Assembly (NCBI GenBank): GCA_013288945.1
Contig: JABDAZ010000026.1
Coordinates: 1 to 42,700, forward strand
Direction: 5' to 3'
From: Bacteroidota bacterium
Lineage (GTDB): Bacteria; Bacteroidota; Bacteroidia; Chitinophagales; Chitinophagaceae
Length of the DNA: 42,700 bases
Both the position numbers and the translations under genes were made by a program. How positions within the stretch are numbered: position 1 is the stretch's first letter; every line of letters starts with the position of its first letter. Shown here one piece after another: positions 20,762 to 35,081 of this stretch. The notes beneath the pieces were generated by a model that searched no databases, was not told the DNA's origin, and was given only the letters and a program-made list of their open reading frames with translations.

Positions 20762-21391
20762 TTGAGCGCGCACGAAATTTTTCAGCAGTTTATTAATGAA
20801 CTCCAACAAACAACCTGGCTTGAATTTATTGCCGTAATCACAGGCATTGCAAGCGTTTGGTTTTCGCGGCTCGAAAATATTTTGGTTTATCCGGTCGGAC
20901 TTATTAATACCATCATTTATATTTTTCTCAGCGTTAAAGGCCATTTGTTTGGCGAAGCCAGCGTGAATTTATATTACACCATCATGAGTATTTATGGATG
21001 GGTTTTGTGGGCAAAAAAAGATCAGCAAAAACAACCTGTATTATTAATAACTTTTTCATCAGCAAAAGAATGGATGAACCAATTGTTATTTTTTGCTGCA
21101 TTTTATATTGCCATCTTTTTTTCATTGTCATTTCTTAAAACAAACTTTGCGCCCGGCGCCGTTCCGTGGGCAGATGCTTTTGCATCCGCAACTGCATACA
21201 CAGGCATGTGGCTGATGACAAAGAAAAAAGTAGAAAGCTGGTATTGGTGGATTGCAACAAACATTGCATCAGTCCCATTATATTTTGTAAAGCATTATGC
21301 ATTTACAAGTGTTTATTATATTGTATTATTAATACTCGCAATCATCGGGTTAATAAGCTGGCAAAAAAAAGCAAGTAATATTAATGCTTAA
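20762..21391 (+). CDS. pnuC: PnuC-type nicotinamide riboside transporter
   Basis: A 209-residue inner-membrane protein with about seven helices, the PnuC facilitator for nicotinamide riboside. Landmarks: WFSRLENILVYPVGLINTII, NLYYTIMSIYGWVLW, and the C-terminal WYWWIATNIASVPLYFVKHY (binding region with Trp and Asn), then ILAIIGLISW. The start is a TTG (MSAHEIFQQF); no in-frame ATG occurs until deep inside the conserved core and a good -7 box sits just upstream, so TTG is probably real. The stop overlaps the nadR start by 8 bases, a sign of translational coupling. Import by facilitated diffusion and trapping by the adjacent kinase make a complete salvage route. No NAD-responsive riboswitch was recognised upstream. 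Confidence 0.92.
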   Translation: MSAHEIFQQFINELQQTTWLEFIAVITGIASVWFSRLENILVYPVGLINTIIYIFLSVKGHLFGEASVNLYYTIMSIYGWVLWAKKDQQKQPVLLITFSSAKEWMNQLLFFAAFYIAIFFSLSFLKTNFAPGAVPWADAFASATAYTGMWLMTKKKVESWYWWIATNIASVPLYFVKHYAFTSVYYIVLLILAIIGLISWQKKASNINA

Positions 21392-21980
21392 AAAAATCGT
21401 CATCATCGGTCCTGAATCAACAGGCAAAAGCACTTTGTGCGAAATGCTTGCAACACATTTTAATACAAAATGGGTTCCCGAATTTGCAAGAGAATATTTA
21501 TTAAAGAATGGAAATAATTATTCATTCGATAATTTATTAACGATTGCAAAAGGGCAATTGAGTTTGGAAGAAAAAATCACGAAAGAGTTGACGGTTGACA
21601 GTTTACAGTTGACAGGAAATAATAAAAGTATAAAACATACATCTCGTATCCCGAATCACGAATCTCACAAACCTCTTTTCATCGACACTGACATGTACGT
21701 AATGAAAATTTGGTGCGAGTTTGTTTTTAATAATTGCCATCAATGGATTATTGATCAAATTATTTCGCGAAAATATGATTTGTATTTGCTTTGCAATACA
21801 GATTTACCATGGACAAAAGATGAACTGAGAGAATATCCTGATTTGGAAACGCGTGAAAAATTATTTCACATTTATAAAGATATTATGATCAATCAAAATA
21901 CTCCGTGGGTTGAAATTAAAGGAATGAATGAAGAAAGAATTCAATCAGCAATTGCAGCTGTTAATAATATTCTTCAATAA
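21384..21980 (+). CDS. nadR: NadR-like nicotinamide riboside kinase with an in-frame repeat insertion
   Basis: A 198-residue ATPase/kinase that phosphorylates nicotinamide riboside. Walker A is GPESTGKST (residues 9-17), followed by VPEFAREYLL, GQLSLEEKI and the conserved PLFIDTDMYVMKIWCEFVF, then LYLLCNTDLPWTKDELREYP. It matches the kinase part of NadR; the HTH and adenylyltransferase parts of enteric NadR are absent. Residues of about 68-96 form a polar loop (between KITKE and KPLFIDTD) that looks foreign to the fold. Its DNA is made of dispersed-repeat sequence (21587-21615 and about 21644-21668). The frame is kept open, so the protein may still work with a surface loop. Overlap with pnuC by 8 bases shows one operon. 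Confidence 0.9.
   Translation: MLKKIVIIGPESTGKSTLCEMLATHFNTKWVPEFAREYLLKNGNNYSFDNLLTIAKGQLSLEEKITKELTVDSLQLTGNNKSIKHTSRIPNHESHKPLFIDTDMYVMKIWCEFVFNNCHQWIIDQIISRKYDLYLLCNTDLPWTKDELREYPDLETREKLFHIYKDIMINQNTPWVEIKGMNEERIQSAIAAVNNILQ
21587..21615 (+). repeat. Dispersed repeat inside nadR
   Basis: A 29-base segment built from GTTGACAG-like units. It matches the reverse complement of 32758-32786 at 24 of 29 positions. A second, different repeat (two CGAATC units) follows at about 21644-21668. Confidence 0.65.
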
Positions 21981-27348: not shown

Positions 27349-28483
27349 TTTCTCCCATCGCATTTTTTGATCCGCTGCCTGCAACGCTGCCACTTTTATT
27401 TGCATGAATTTTATAGTGAACATTCATTTCATTTTCCTCAAACGCATTAATAATTTGTTTGAAAGAAAAATTGTTTCCTTCACAAAAAATTATTTCATTG
27501 GCTTTATTTTTGTCATCAACAAAACTTCTTTGTGTTGATGATAAATTATTTTTTATAAAATTTTCATCAGCCAAATCACTAACAATAAAAGTTTTAATTT
27601 CTTTATTATTAATCGTAATTTTTTTTGGCTTAAAAAAATTGATTATTAATGAAACGCCCGCCCGCAGCCAGATTGCGCCATCCATTAATAAATTAAATAG
27701 AAAAGAAATGCCGCCTTTATAATGCTTGCGCACAAACTGGCTCATGGCTTTATAAAATAATTTTGTGTATTTCAAATCCCGGCGCGTGCTTTCGCCTTTA
27801 AAATGAATGATGGTTGTTTCTGCCAGATAATAGTTATAATAATTTGCTTTTTGAATACGGAAACTCAAATCAATATCTTCTGCATACATAAAAAATTGTT
27901 CATCAAATCCGCCAATAATATCAATCACTTCTTTTTTAACCATCATGCATGCGCCAGACAAAACATCCACTTCATTATTTTCATTTTCATTTAACTGGCC
28001 AAGATAATAACGCGCAAAAATTTTTGATTTTGGAAACACATTTATTAACCCTGATAATTTATAAAAAGAAACCAACGGCGACGGAAACCCGCGCTTTGAT
28101 TCTTTTAAATAAGAACCAGTTCCATCAATCATTTTCACGCCAATGGCGCCGGCTTTTTTATTGGCTTCAAGAAAAGCAATACATTTTTCAAAACTATCTT
28201 CTGCAACAATTGTGTCTGGGTTTAAAAACAAAATATATTTTCCGCAAGCGTGTATTAATGCCTGGTTATTTGCTTTTGCAAAACCTGAATTTGTTTTATT
28301 AATAACAAATTTTACATCAGGAAATTTTGGTTGTAAATATTCCAGGCTTGCATCGGTTGAATGATTATCAACCACAAAAATTTCCGTTTCAATATTATAA
28401 ATAGCTTTCATTACCGAGCAAAGGCATTGCTCTAAAAAATATTTTACATTATAATTTACGATTATGATAGAAAGCCTTTTCAT
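27329..28483 (-). CDS. Family 2 glycosyltransferase (WbbL/rhamnosyltransferase-like) with C-terminal extension
   Basis: A 384-residue GT-A fold glycosyltransferase. Motifs in order: LSIIIVNYNVKYFLEQCL, EIFVVDNHSTDASLEYL, NSGFAKANNQAL, the DxD-like ILFLNPDTIV, GACMMVKKEVIDIIGGFDEQFFMYAEDIDL (acceptor-binding and ED motif, given here in outline) and HFKGESTRR. This order fits GT2 enzymes that add rhamnose or related sugars to surface polysaccharide. A hydrophobic patch (LMDGAIWLRAGVSLIINFF) may bind the membrane. Residues after about 290 form an extra domain with IKTFIVSDLADENF, NEIIFCEGN and VHYKIHANKSGS, seen in several Bacteroidota GT2 proteins as I recall; its role is unknown. A single copy of the AAATACGAAGTACGAA-type repeat lies just upstream. 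Confidence 0.88.
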   Translation of the reverse strand: MKRLSIIIVNYNVKYFLEQCLCSVMKAIYNIETEIFVVDNHSTDASLEYLQPKFPDVKFVINKTNSGFAKANNQALIHACGKYILFLNPDTIVAEDSFEKCIAFLEANKKAGAIGVKMIDGTGSYLKESKRGFPSPLVSFYKLSGLINVFPKSKIFARYYLGQLNENENNEVDVLSGACMMVKKEVIDIIGGFDEQFFMYAEDIDLSFRIQKANYYNYYLAETTIIHFKGESTRRDLKYTKLFYKAMSQFVRKHYKGGISFLFNLLMDGAIWLRAGVSLIINFFKPKKITINNKEIKTFIVSDLADENFIKNNLSSTQRSFVDDKNKANEIIFCEGNNFSFKQIINAFEENEMNVHYKIHANKSGSVAGSGSKNAMGETIPLNP

Positions 28484-28497
28484 AATTACAAAGTGAG

Positions 28498-28522
28498 AAA
28501 TACGAAGTACGAAGTTTTAATT
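28498..28522 (+). repeat. Solo copy of the TACGAAGTACGAA repeat
   Basis: AAATACGAAGTACGAAG followed by TTTTAATT. It resembles the arms of the IVP cassette at 33575-33606 and 34015-34046, and lies 15 bases upstream of the GT2 start codon. Confidence 0.6.
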
Positions 28523-28589
28523 TTCTGATTAAAATTTATTTACAAAAACATTAATAAACATGCGTGGTTTATTAACAAACTATTTTTTA

Positions 28590-32665: not shown

Positions 32666-32757
32666 AAAAATTTTACTATCTATAAATGTATGACTTAACC
32701 ATCAACAGAAATATTATGCTCATTTATTAATAAATAAAATGAAAAAAATTATTCCAT

Positions 32758-32786
32758 CTGCCAACTGTTAACTGCCAACTTTCAAC
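32758..32786 (-). repeat. Dispersed repeat upstream of the IMPase gene
   Basis: The reverse complement of this 29-base segment matches the nadR-internal repeat at 21587-21615 at 24 of 29 positions. It ends 4 bases before the -7 box of the IMPase gene. Confidence 0.65.
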
Positions 32787-32790
32787 TTCT

Positions 32791-32802: not shown

Positions 32803-33576
32803 ATGTTAAAAAATACTTTATTAAAAGCCACTGAAGCTGGCGCAAAAGTGATGCAGCAATTTTTTCATGGCGAATTTAAAATCTCAAATAAAGATGGCAT
32901 TAATAATTTAGTTACCGAAGCTGATCATGCTTCTGAAAAAGCAATTTTTGATGTTATAAAAAATGATTTTCCCGATCACTTTTTATTGAGTGAAGAAGCT
33001 GGTGAAATTTTTATGGATTCGAATTATAAATGGATTATTGACCCGATTGATGGCACGGTAAATTTTGCGCATGGCATCCCGATTTGTTGTGTTTCCATTG
33101 GCCTTGAACAAAATGGAGAAATGATAATGGGCGCTGTGTATAACCCATTTATTAATGAATTTTATTTTGCACAAAAAGGTTTTGGCGCTTCGCTGAATGA
33201 TAATAAAATTGAAGTCAGTAAAGAAACTGAAGTTGGCAAATCTTGTTTGGTAACCGGTTTTCCATACACTTATCTTGATAATAAAAATGGCCCGCTGGAA
33301 GTTTTTGCAAGATTAATTCGCAAAGGAGTTCCGGTAAGAAGATTAGGATCTGCAGCAATGGATTTATGCTGGGTTGCAGCTGGAAGGTTTGATGGTTTTT
33401 ATGAACATAAATTATCAGCGTGGGACAGTGCCGCAGGTTTTTTAATTGTAGAAGAAGCCGGTGGAAAAGTAACAGATTTTTCAGGAAAATATTATTCGCC
33501 CTATCAACCACACATCGTTGCAACCAATGGAAAAATTCATGATGAATTGTTGTTGTGGATTAATGATGAATTCTAA
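32803..33576 (+). CDS. Inositol monophosphatase family protein
   Basis: A 257-residue Mg-dependent phosphatase of the IMPase/FBPase/CysQ superfamily. The metal-binding motifs are present: LVTEADHASEKAI, LLSEEAGE (Glu ligand), the core WIIDPIDGTVNFAHGIP (two Asp ligands) and SAWDSAAGFLIVEEAGG (last Asp ligand). DPIDGTVNF with Asn at this place suits true inositol monophosphatases or SuhB-like proteins. Substrates could be inositol phosphate or other sugar monophosphates; this cannot be decided. The stop codon overlaps the left repeat of the four-helix-bundle cassette by two bases. thiL follows beyond the cassette on the same strand, so IMPase and thiL may have been direct neighbours before its insertion. 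Confidence 0.95.
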   Translation: MLKNTLLKATEAGAKVMQQFFHGEFKISNKDGINNLVTEADHASEKAIFDVIKNDFPDHFLLSEEAGEIFMDSNYKWIIDPIDGTVNFAHGIPICCVSIGLEQNGEMIMGAVYNPFINEFYFAQKGFGASLNDNKIEVSKETEVGKSCLVTGFPYTYLDNKNGPLEVFARLIRKGVPVRRLGSAAMDLCWVAAGRFDGFYEHKLSAWDSAAGFLIVEEAGGKVTDFSGKYYSPYQPHIVATNGKIHDELLLWINDEF

Positions 33577-33606
33577 ATACGAAGTAAGAAGTACGAAATA
33601 TGAATT
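33575..33606 (+). repeat. Left terminal inverted repeat of the IVP cassette
   Basis: 32 bases, opening AAATACGAAGTAAGAAGTAC. It matches the reverse complement of 34015-34046 at 27 of 32 positions. Confidence 0.75.
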
Positions 33607-33639
33607 TTTTTTGAGATAATAATTTAAAAATTTCGTACT
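33590..33639 (+). repeat. Inner hairpin in the leader of the IVP-family gene
   Basis: AGTACGAAAT (33590-33599) and ATTTCGTACT (33630-33639) are perfect 10-bp arms with a 30-base AT-rich loop, ending 8 bases before the ATG at 33648. It could hide the start region in a folded mRNA. Confidence 0.55.
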
Positions 33640-33647
33640 TGTTACCA

Positions 33648-34016
33648 ATGCCGGATATAAACCTTAAAAAAAGAACCTTTGAATTTGCTGTTGCAATTGC
33701 AAAACTTGCTGTTGATTTACCTTATAATTTAATTAATCGTGCTTATCTTAATCAAATAATCAGAAGTTCATCTTCGGTCGGTGCAAATTATAGAGCTGCC
33801 CAACAAGCAAAATCATCCAATGATTTTATTAATAAATTAAAAATTGTTGAAGAAGAAAATGATGAGACTGTTTATTTTCTTGAACTTCTTTTAGTTTTTA
33901 ATCCGGATCATTCAAACAATATTATTTCATTAATAAACGAAGGAACTGAATTATTAAAAATTATTGTTGCTTCTATTAATACAACAAAAGAAAGGCTCAA
34001 TAATCAAAAAAAATAA
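33648..34016 (+). CDS. Four-helix-bundle protein of the 23S rRNA IVP (S23) family
   Basis: A 122-residue, mostly helical protein. The ATG at 33648 is preferred to a TTG three codons earlier. Family features: the opening helix KRTFEFAVAIAKLAVDLP, then NQIIRSSSSVGANYRAAQQA (the conserved Ser-Ser-Val-Gly-x-Asn turn), KLKIVEEENDETVYFLELLL (Glu/Asp-rich helix) and a last amphipathic helix. Relatives are encoded in intervening sequences of 23S rRNA genes and as stand-alone genes in Bacteroidota; the Avd protein of diversity-generating retroelements has the same fold and binds nucleic acid. No reverse transcriptase, variable repeat or rRNA is near here. Its location in an inverted-repeat unit suggests it travels with that repeat (inference). 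Confidence 0.88.
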   Translation: MPDINLKKRTFEFAVAIAKLAVDLPYNLINRAYLNQIIRSSSSVGANYRAAQQAKSSNDFINKLKIVEEENDETVYFLELLLVFNPDHSNNIISLINEGTELLKIIVASINTTKERLNNQKK

Positions 34017-34046
34017 TTCGTACTTCGTATTTATTATTTCGTATTT
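34015..34046 (-). repeat. Right terminal inverted repeat of the IVP cassette
   Basis: Reverse complement of the left arm with five mismatches. It overlaps the IVP gene stop codon by two bases and ends three bases before the thiL ATG. Confidence 0.75.
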
Positions 34047-34049
34047 ATT

Positions 34050-35081
34050 ATGGAAAGAACAGAAATATCCTCTCTCGGAGAATTTGGATTAATAGATCAT
34101 CTCACCAAAAATATTGAACATCAAAATGCTTCAACCATTTTAGGCGTTGGCGATGATGCGGCGGTGATTGATCATTTCGGAAAGCAAACTGTTGTTACTA
34201 CAGATTTATTAATAGAAGGTGTTCATTTTGATTTGATGTATACGCCGTTAAAACATCTTGGTTATAAAAGTGTAATTGTAAACCTCAGTGATATTTATGC
34301 GATGAACGCTGTGCCAACGCAAATTACCATTGCGCTTGGCATCAGCAACCGCTTTAGTTTGGAAGCGCTGGATGAATTTTATGAAGGTGTTTATGCTGCG
34401 TGCAATAAATATGGCGTCGATTTAATTGGCGGCGATACCGCTTCTTCACAAAAAGGTTTTATTATTTCTATTACTGCCATTGGCGAAGTGGCGCCGGATA
34501 AATTTGTAAAAAGAACTACAGCAAAAAAAGGCGATTTATTATGTTGCAGCGGCGATTTGGGCGCAGCATATTTAGGATTGGTTTTTTTAGAAAGAGAAAA
34601 GAAAATATTTTTAGAAAGCCCTGCCGTAAAACCAGATCTCGAAGGAGAAAAATATGTAATCGGAAGATTATTAAAACCAGAAGCACGAAAAGATATCGTT
34701 GAATTTTTTGAAACGAATGAATTAATGCCAACGTCGATGATGGACATAAGCGACGGATTAAGTTCCGAAATTTTACATATCTGTAAAGACAGTGAACTGG
34801 GTTGCGTTTTATACGAAGAAAAAATTCCGATAGCAGAAGAAACGCGCAGCGCAGCTTTTAAATTTGAACTTGATCCAACAGCATGCGCACTTAGCGGCGG
34901 CGAAGATTATGAATTGCTTTTTACTATTTCGCAGGAAGATCATGATAAACTTGTTTTGAATGAGCATATAAGCGTTATCGGATACATGACTGAACCGGAA
35001 AAAGGTAAAAAAATAATCACCAAAGGTGGCAGTACTTTTGATATAACAGCGCAGGGATGGAACGCTTTTTCGTCAAAATAA
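34050..35081 (+). CDS. thiL: Thiamine-monophosphate kinase
   Basis: Phosphorylates thiamine monophosphate to the active cofactor thiamine diphosphate with ATP; cytoplasmic, PurM-like fold. The 343-residue product has normal length. Landmarks: the start SLGEFGLIDHL, the ATP/Mg segment LGVGDDAAVID, VVTTDLLIEGVHFDL, the paired NLSDIYAMNAVPTQI, LIGGDTASS and the C-terminal ISDGLSSEILHI and SGGEDYELLF. All are diagnostic of ThiL. No other thiamine biosynthesis gene is close. Its start lies 3 bases beyond the cassette's right repeat, so the native promoter or leader may have been displaced; transcription may now come from the IMPase promoter or from within the cassette. Confidence 0.96.
   Translation: MERTEISSLGEFGLIDHLTKNIEHQNASTILGVGDDAAVIDHFGKQTVVTTDLLIEGVHFDLMYTPLKHLGYKSVIVNLSDIYAMNAVPTQITIALGISNRFSLEALDEFYEGVYAACNKYGVDLIGGDTASSQKGFIISITAIGEVAPDKFVKRTTAKKGDLLCCSGDLGAAYLGLVFLEREKKIFLESPAVKPDLEGEKYVIGRLLKPEARKDIVEFFETNELMPTSMMDISDGLSSEILHICKDSELGCVLYEEKIPIAEETRSAAFKFELDPTACALSGGEDYELLFTISQEDHDKLVLNEHISVIGYMTEPEKGKKIITKGGSTFDITAQGWNAFSSK

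Follow-up and report, generated by a model that had tools for sequence, protein, structure and literature searches.

In RAYT/REP systems (REPIN), a gene is flanked by its own short inverted repeats, and gene-less copies of these repeats are scattered between genes. The cyanobacterial STRR are one type of tandem heptamer repeat. Another type consists of TAACTGA direct repeats found in Beggiatoaceae, Cyanobacteria, and five Bacteroidetes, which excerpts of PMC4679880 describe as mostly intergenic, patchily distributed, and possibly transmitted horizontally, with 'no mechanism ... evident'. A further case is the intervening sequence (IVS) of 23S rRNA: excerpts of PMC4990558 describe a Coxiella IVS of 428 nt with an S23 open reading frame (ORF) between complementary ends, report its proposal as a selfish or mobile element, and state that, over 25 years since S23-coding IVS were discovered, their function and origin are unclear. 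Avd is given as a homologue of S23 in part of PMC10053308. Here we analyse a 42,700-nt stretch (the window) of contig JABDAZ010000026.1, assembly GCA_013288945.1, from a Bacteroidota bacterium of the Chitinophagaceae, in which an S23/IVP gene stands between an inositol monophosphatase family (IMPase) gene and thiL. With moderate confidence, and from sequence comparison, we read this feature as a copy of a widespread mobile cassette in which an S23 gene stands between a left and a right array of a cognate 7-bp repeat (heptad), the two arrays being inverted relative to each other. Such a cassette looks like a kind of mobile DNA without earlier description.

S23 genes between inverted heptad arrays

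The window gene scores above the cut-offs of both S23/IVP profiles (TIGR02436, 72.2 bits against 24; PF05635, 50.8 bits against 33.8) and lies between IMPase and thiL, as the initial annotation of this DNA had placed it (Table 1); TTG at 33639 is a possible alternative start. The AlphaFold2 model of its protein has four helices and a mean pLDDT of 95.7, and the nearest solved structures found by Foldseek, 2RLD (TMq 0.75-0.80) and 2GSC (TMq 0.76-0.79), identify it as a four-helix bundle, with Avd next (4DWL_B, TMq 0.71, Foldseek E 0.11). An S23 ORF between complementary ends is an arrangement of the IVS type, and the likeness to rRNA IVS noted in the initial annotation agrees with the description in excerpts of PMC4990558. 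The same annotation bounded the gene by two 32-base inverted repeats. Inverted ends are indeed present, as arms of 39 nt that are 85% complementary (33574-33612 and 34009-34047), and in place of a fixed 32-base repeat they are S23-coupled arrays of 7-bp units, with segments of self-match at a lag of 7 at 33558-33604 and 34014-34046. The left arm begins in the IMPase stop codon, as annotated, and the right one spans the S23 stop and ends 2, not 3, bases before the thiL ATG. A search of the genome for further copies of the repeat, proposed at the same time, found more of them. The left array also has a short inner copy in inverted orientation (Table 1), and a local hairpin between the two could compete with arm-arm pairing.

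S23 matches occur in 13 of 30 same-genus genomes (own included), nine of them in the window's own genome. Below, G numbers denote same-genus genomes and L numbers S23 or comparison loci. Of 66 same-genus matches listed we analysed 65, leaving aside the second piece of a gene that is broken in L132; fragments (e.g., L089, L122, L132) were counted, and G040, counted as a carrier, has an S23 fragment only. A flank score was obtained for each locus by aligning 200 nt of upstream sequence with 200 nt of reverse-complemented downstream sequence. Own flank pairs reached at least 24 in 56 of the 65 loci, against 6.1% of mismatched flank pairs, and at least 30 in 49, against 1.6%; in 39 loci the own partner was the best of all flanks, and the highest score of mononucleotide shuffles was 29. 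The mismatched-pair and shuffle controls rule out a chance repeat. Self-match at lag 7 was 0.37/0.40 in these flanks, against 0.27 inside the S23 genes and 0.28-0.31 at other lags except lag 14 (0.34/0.37). With their lag-7 peaks and mostly intergenic placement, these tandem 7-mers are heptamer repeats. By eye, several loci (e.g., L009, L011, L012, L106, L128) have a motif resembling AAACCT(N)ACCCT directly 5' of the S23 start.

The pattern extends to other genomes. A further 80 loci were found with the window's S23 subfamily among the matches listed, a scope that holds for all counts from this set; most come from Bacteroidota, and single records are labelled Omnitrophota, Verrucomicrobiia, and Chloroflexi. 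Flank scores were at least 24 in 63 of them (lag-7 self-match 0.376/0.351), a threshold that 29% of mismatched pairs in this set also reach because the heptad is common to loci. Plasmid searches (28 and 23 records) gave 16 regions for analysis, 13 from Cyanobacteriota and one each from Chloroflexota, Spirochaetota, and Bacteroidota; 15 of these 16 loci scored at least 26, against 12.5% of mismatched pairs, with a median of 48.5 against 18 and lag-7 self-match of 0.485/0.441. In four annotated plasmid stretches, all four S23 genes scored 49-66, and 7 of 159 non-S23 genes reached 30 or more, four of which are annotated insertion sequence (IS) transposases; two others of the seven, unexplained, have very strong inverted flanks (L359:45947-46711 and L357:30475-33603, scores 102 and 84). 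Among ORFs of at least 100 aa, flanks of at least 30 were found in 0/140 (G041), 5/161 (G000, two being S23 genes), and 3/146 (G021), and in none of 335 from two S23-free genomes. Two phage records contain an S23 match.

Empty and filled sites

The initial annotation had called for comparison of the IMPase-thiL junction with relatives, and saw its proposal as refuted if all of them had the same gene and repeats there. We searched thiL in the 29 other same-genus genomes and could read the junction in 28 (G018 lacks a thiL match): in 27 of these, IMPase and thiL adjoin without an S23 gene. The remaining genome, G041, has an orthologous cassette at the junction, with an S23 gene 55-58% identical to that of the window and arms of its own. 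The heptads of the two are related yet distinct (GTACGAA-like in the window, GTACGAT/GTGAGAT in G041), and both arms are altered. The empty sites are too diverged between species for target-site duplications to be read. In six genomes (L011, L080, L081, L083, L090, L100), an S23 cassette occupies one identical junction, with heptads that differ between genomes. Two candidate matches were set aside: the start of the downstream gene, repeated in inverted form in the left flank of L100 beside a run of N (scaffold gap), and a similar 6-base match in L080, which is too short.

Cassettes also lie inside genes. In the Nostoc plasmid loci L351, L364, and L365, a cassette interrupts the gene of a DNA cytosine methyltransferase; L361 and L362 carry this gene intact. 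The matching points are separated by 332 host nt in the whole gene, against 470, 470, and 456 nt in the filled ones, and host sequence was therefore lost too. The left edge of the cassette falls on the host sequence CAATTCG, which equals the cassette's heptad. A helicase site (L350/L363) was set aside as too diverged. These comparisons show that gene and arrays form a unit of about 450-500 bp, which a given junction or gene may contain or lack. Several cassettes of cyanobacterial plasmids (L342, L343, L352, L354, L366, L367) stand within or beside CRISPR-cas, DISARM (drmD), or PglX/MmeI genes. Near the cassette of L340 (plasmid NZ_CP054697.1), DUF5615 PIN-like and DUF433 proteins are annotated under the matched stretch; pairs of this kind often form toxin-antitoxin systems.

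Heptad identity, S23 kinship, and coupling of the arms

We compared heptads with S23 kinship in 52 of the 65 same-genus loci (flank score at least 24, no stop, at least 85 aa). A common heptad (score at least 30) was found in 9 of 12 pairs with S23 proteins at least 70% identical and in none of 1216 pairs below 50%, and it was found in all four pairs of at least 70% identity that lack matching flank genes (L127/L130, L079/L082, L093/L107, L088/L096). Conversely, heptads can be unrelated at one locus when the S23 genes have diverged (L092/L093). L368 and L350 have the same heptad, TAATTCG, at different loci, with S23 genes 78% identical in nucleotides. In a Mantel permutation test on 50 of these loci (1197 different-locus pairs), rho was 0.15, and none of 999 permutations was as high. 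Within the window's subfamily, the left-arm core TACGA/TTAGA/TACTA/TACAA/TACCA is forward in 55 of 63 loci, reverse in none, in both directions in one, and in neither in seven. As far as these alignments go, they show that the heptad goes with close S23 kinship rather than with the locus, and that its polarity is fixed in the window's subfamily. L096 and L097 carry one cassette type in opposite orientations at the same locus.

The two arrays of one cassette also change together, as shown by comparison of orthologues: the arms match each other better within a cassette than between orthologues in 26 of 27 same-locus pairs. The Nostoc plasmid loci L364 and L365 differ in the same manner, with S23 genes identical at 365 of 366 nt and arrays of 4+4 against 3+3 heptads, a difference free of the arm-definition bias that affects the 27-pair test. 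Among 82 arrays, lengths of 4-5 heptads are the most frequent (29 arrays), and the median is 31 nt.

Gene-less arrays

Heptad arrays were counted in 200 kb each of three S23 carriers (G041, G000, G021) and in 200, 200, 160, and 40 kb of four S23-free genomes. At the stricter threshold, lag-7 arrays numbered 9, 14, and 6 per 200 kb in the carriers, respectively, and zero in the 600 kb of S23-free DNA; at the looser one, 21, 31, and 17 against 3 in all four S23-free genomes. Control lags gave at most 3 (stricter) or 7 (looser) per genome. Nearly all the arrays (65 of 69) lie outside S23 cassettes, and 11 of 69 midpoints fall inside ORFs, against an ORF coverage of about 80%. Many have an inverted partner nearby, with no S23 gene between. 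The arrays outside cassettes match best the S23 arms of their own genome, by small margins. In these samples, the scans show gene-less arrays to be frequent in S23 carriers and nearly absent from S23-free genomes.

The window itself holds a gene-less array of the cassette heptad (Table 1) and two arrays of other types. One at 21587-21615, of GTTGACA type, lies within a 198-aa ORF (21384-21980); the TTGACAG type is also the heptad of the S23 cassette L011 in the same genome. The other, at 32754-32788 and of CCAACTG type, is directly upstream of the IMPase start.

Table 1. Features of the S23/IVP cassette, its host genes, and a gene-less array in the window
Feature	Position	Strand	Evidence or remark
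Gene-less short array of the same heptad (GAAATACGAAGTACGAAGT)	28497..28515	+	Repeat search 28476-28531; lag-7 scan
Upstream host gene, IMPase (inositol monophosphatase family)	32803..33576	+	PF00459, E 5.5e-70; ORF; stop 33574-33576
Left heptad array TACGAAG TAAGAAG TACGAAA TATGAA	33574..33604	+	Begins on IMPase stop; inverted partner is the right array
Short inner inverted copy of left array	33630..33645	+	Pairs with 33584-33599, 94%
S23/IVP gene, four-helix-bundle protein, 122 aa from ATG	33648..34016	+	ORF, profile matches, AlphaFold2
Right heptad array, reverse complement of left heptads	34014..34047	-	Spans S23 stop 34014-34016
Downstream host gene thiL (thiamine-phosphate kinase)	34050..35081	+	TIGR01379, 303 bits against cut-off 184

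A second gene family has similar surroundings. Genes of the GxxExxY family (PF13366) are present in 7 of the 30 same-genus genomes, six of which also have S23. Flanks of 27 of 37 matches were analysed; of the other ten, three are broken pieces that have loci and seven are matches that have none. These loci (L135-L158) show inverted flanks of at least 26 in 15 of 27 cases, a score that 4% of mismatched pairs reach; their self-match peaks are weak and lie near 8-9, not 7. GxxExxY genes with inverted flanks of short repeats are perhaps a second cassette family.

How the cassette might spread

The cassette codes only for S23, and we infer that the S23 protein recognises its own heptads. The mechanism we propose has three elements: 1) S23 would bind the arrays, perhaps with one heptad per subunit; 2) it would act as the specificity factor; and 3) copying would be done by host replication or repair, with template switching on a hairpin. 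Copying guided by S23 would explain the matched arms, the rewriting of both arms at once, the change of arrays in whole heptads, the solo arrays, and the landing on a host 7-mer of the heptad's sequence. Its mode of action would resemble that of RAYT/REP, except that the cassette would supply no nuclease itself; to our knowledge, S23 has no known catalytic site. The 2RLD and 2GSC entries have five chains each, and the 2GSC paper names five four-helix bundles in its title. Arrays of 4-5 heptads together with these five-chain entries make one heptad per subunit possible, if speculative. The window cassette may be mobilised in trans, as the initial annotation suggested.

Several points weigh against a mobile S23-heptad cassette. 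First, neither binding nor excision nor transposition was observed. Second, some loci lack the pattern: 9 of 65 same-genus loci, 17 of 80 in other genomes, and 1 of 16 on plasmids fall below the thresholds, and the Omnitrophota locus L246 has flanks under 24. Third, the Mantel rho is low and owes its effect to pairs with more than 50% identity, and the arms of the 27-pair test were set by within-cassette alignment, which biases it toward within over between. Fourth, of the two marks of IS and miniature inverted-repeat transposable elements, inverted ends and a target-site duplication, the cassette has the inverted ends, but no duplication was seen by eye at an nrd junction (compared with an empty Calothrix copy) or at the methyltransferase site, and simple insertion describes the latter poorly because host DNA was lost as well. 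Fifth, the match of solo arrays to cassettes of their own rather than the next genome is slight (25.1 against 21.6, 26.0 against 23.0, 20.9 against 20.5) and cassette number per genome varies in this comparison, and the contrast between carriers and S23-free genomes rests on 200 kb from each of three genomes against the four smaller or equal samples given above. Finally, the enzymes checked as movers were of two families only, Y1 transposase and reverse transcriptase (RVT_1).

Alternative explanations

The arrays could instead belong to an RNA element, unlikely in our judgement, in which they fold the transcript into a stem cut by RNase III as in rRNA IVS, which would free the S23 message and leave the host operon unharmed. 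The arms do form the terminal stem of the predicted fold of the cassette RNA (-99.6 kcal/mol, z -4.2), and an excerpt of PMC4990558 reports a stem of this kind, cut in vitro by RNase III, in the S23-containing IVS of Coxiella. However, arm mismatches that give G-U pairs number 83 in sense and 84 in antisense across 96 cassettes, and there is therefore no sign of selection for RNA pairing as such, which we rejected on this ground. Some cassettes are, moreover, antisense to both neighbour genes, and both the 7-bp period and an S23-specific heptad would be superfluous for a stem.

That heptads follow S23 kinship with fixed polarity, and that arrays are mostly intergenic, would equally suit an immobile array of binding sites, with S23 as a DNA- or RNA-binding regulator that uses its own arrays for autoregulation and the solo arrays as targets. 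We hold this to be unlikely as well: cassettes are present or absent at junctions and can interrupt a gene found intact in other plasmids, one S23 type and its heptad recur at unrelated loci, and regulation does not need both arms to change simultaneously.

An enzyme encoded outside the cassette, be it a Y1/RAYT transposase, a reverse transcriptase, or another, might move the arrays with S23 as a passenger. Y1 and RVT_1 are each present in some carriers, and REP elements are moved by RAYTs in other systems. Against this, the window cassette contains neither, Y1 had no match in 7 of 13 S23 carriers (including G008, 99% complete) and RVT_1 none in 10 of 13, absences that are uncertain because several of these genomes are incomplete. 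The genes of these enzymes rarely have such inverted arrays: in the matches with loci (12 of 43 for Y1 and 12 of 21 for reverse transcriptase), flanks reached 26 or more in 1 of 12 each. A spread driven by Y1 or reverse transcriptase is unsupported by their distribution across carriers, to which neither family is common, and we regard an outside enzyme with S23 as passenger as improbable. That repeats and gene are independent, S23 genes merely lying among common heptad arrays, would fit the frequency of solo arrays in carriers and is very improbable, being refuted as far as tested by the other-gene controls, the mismatched pairs, and the polarity.

Comparison with known systems

If the mobile cassette of S23 and heptads is what it appears to be, it ties together two puzzles, that of the IVS and that of the heptamer repeats, and raises the question of whether each S23 recognises its own heptad and spreads the repeat. 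Among open-licence PMC papers, we found no link of S23 to heptamers, and a search of the text of PMC4679880 for S23, four helix, and intervening had no match. An excerpt of PMC3936711 counts 18 S23-family genes in cas loci, and these may be inserted passengers. More broadly, and only tentatively, S23 with its cognate heptad arrays may constitute a separate class of mobile elements that encode no transposase themselves, spread over several phyla and with heptads specific to each subfamily, in which the heptamer repeats of Bacteroidota and Cyanobacteria would be gene-less copies and the S23-coding IVS of 23S rRNA the same element in rRNA.

Four described systems come close. The 23S rRNA IVS of Coxiella and Leptospira, as described in excerpts of PMC4990558, likewise have one S23 ORF between complementary ends, whereas the window cassette is outside rRNA (Rfam gave no match in the window and none to rRNA in the 20 scanned of the 80 related loci), S23 cassettes lie between or inside protein genes, and their ends are S23-coupled heptad arrays. 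Avd of the diversity-generating retroelements has a related four-helix-bundle fold, and the cassette differs from these retroelements in having no reverse transcriptase, template repeat (TR), or variable repeat (VR). The TAACTGA and STRR repeats are similar in being tandem 7-mers, mostly intergenic and patchy, in the same phyla; those of TAACTGA type are described, in the excerpts cited above, chiefly as direct repeats, with no protein to partner them, whereas the heptads here form inverted pairs around S23 genes. RAYT/REP resembles the cassette in its general plan, a gene with its own inverted repeats and scattered gene-less copies in the same genome, which here match the genome's own cassettes best by a small margin, but the S23 cassette has no Y1 transposase, and its repeat is a tandem heptad that differs between S23 subfamilies.
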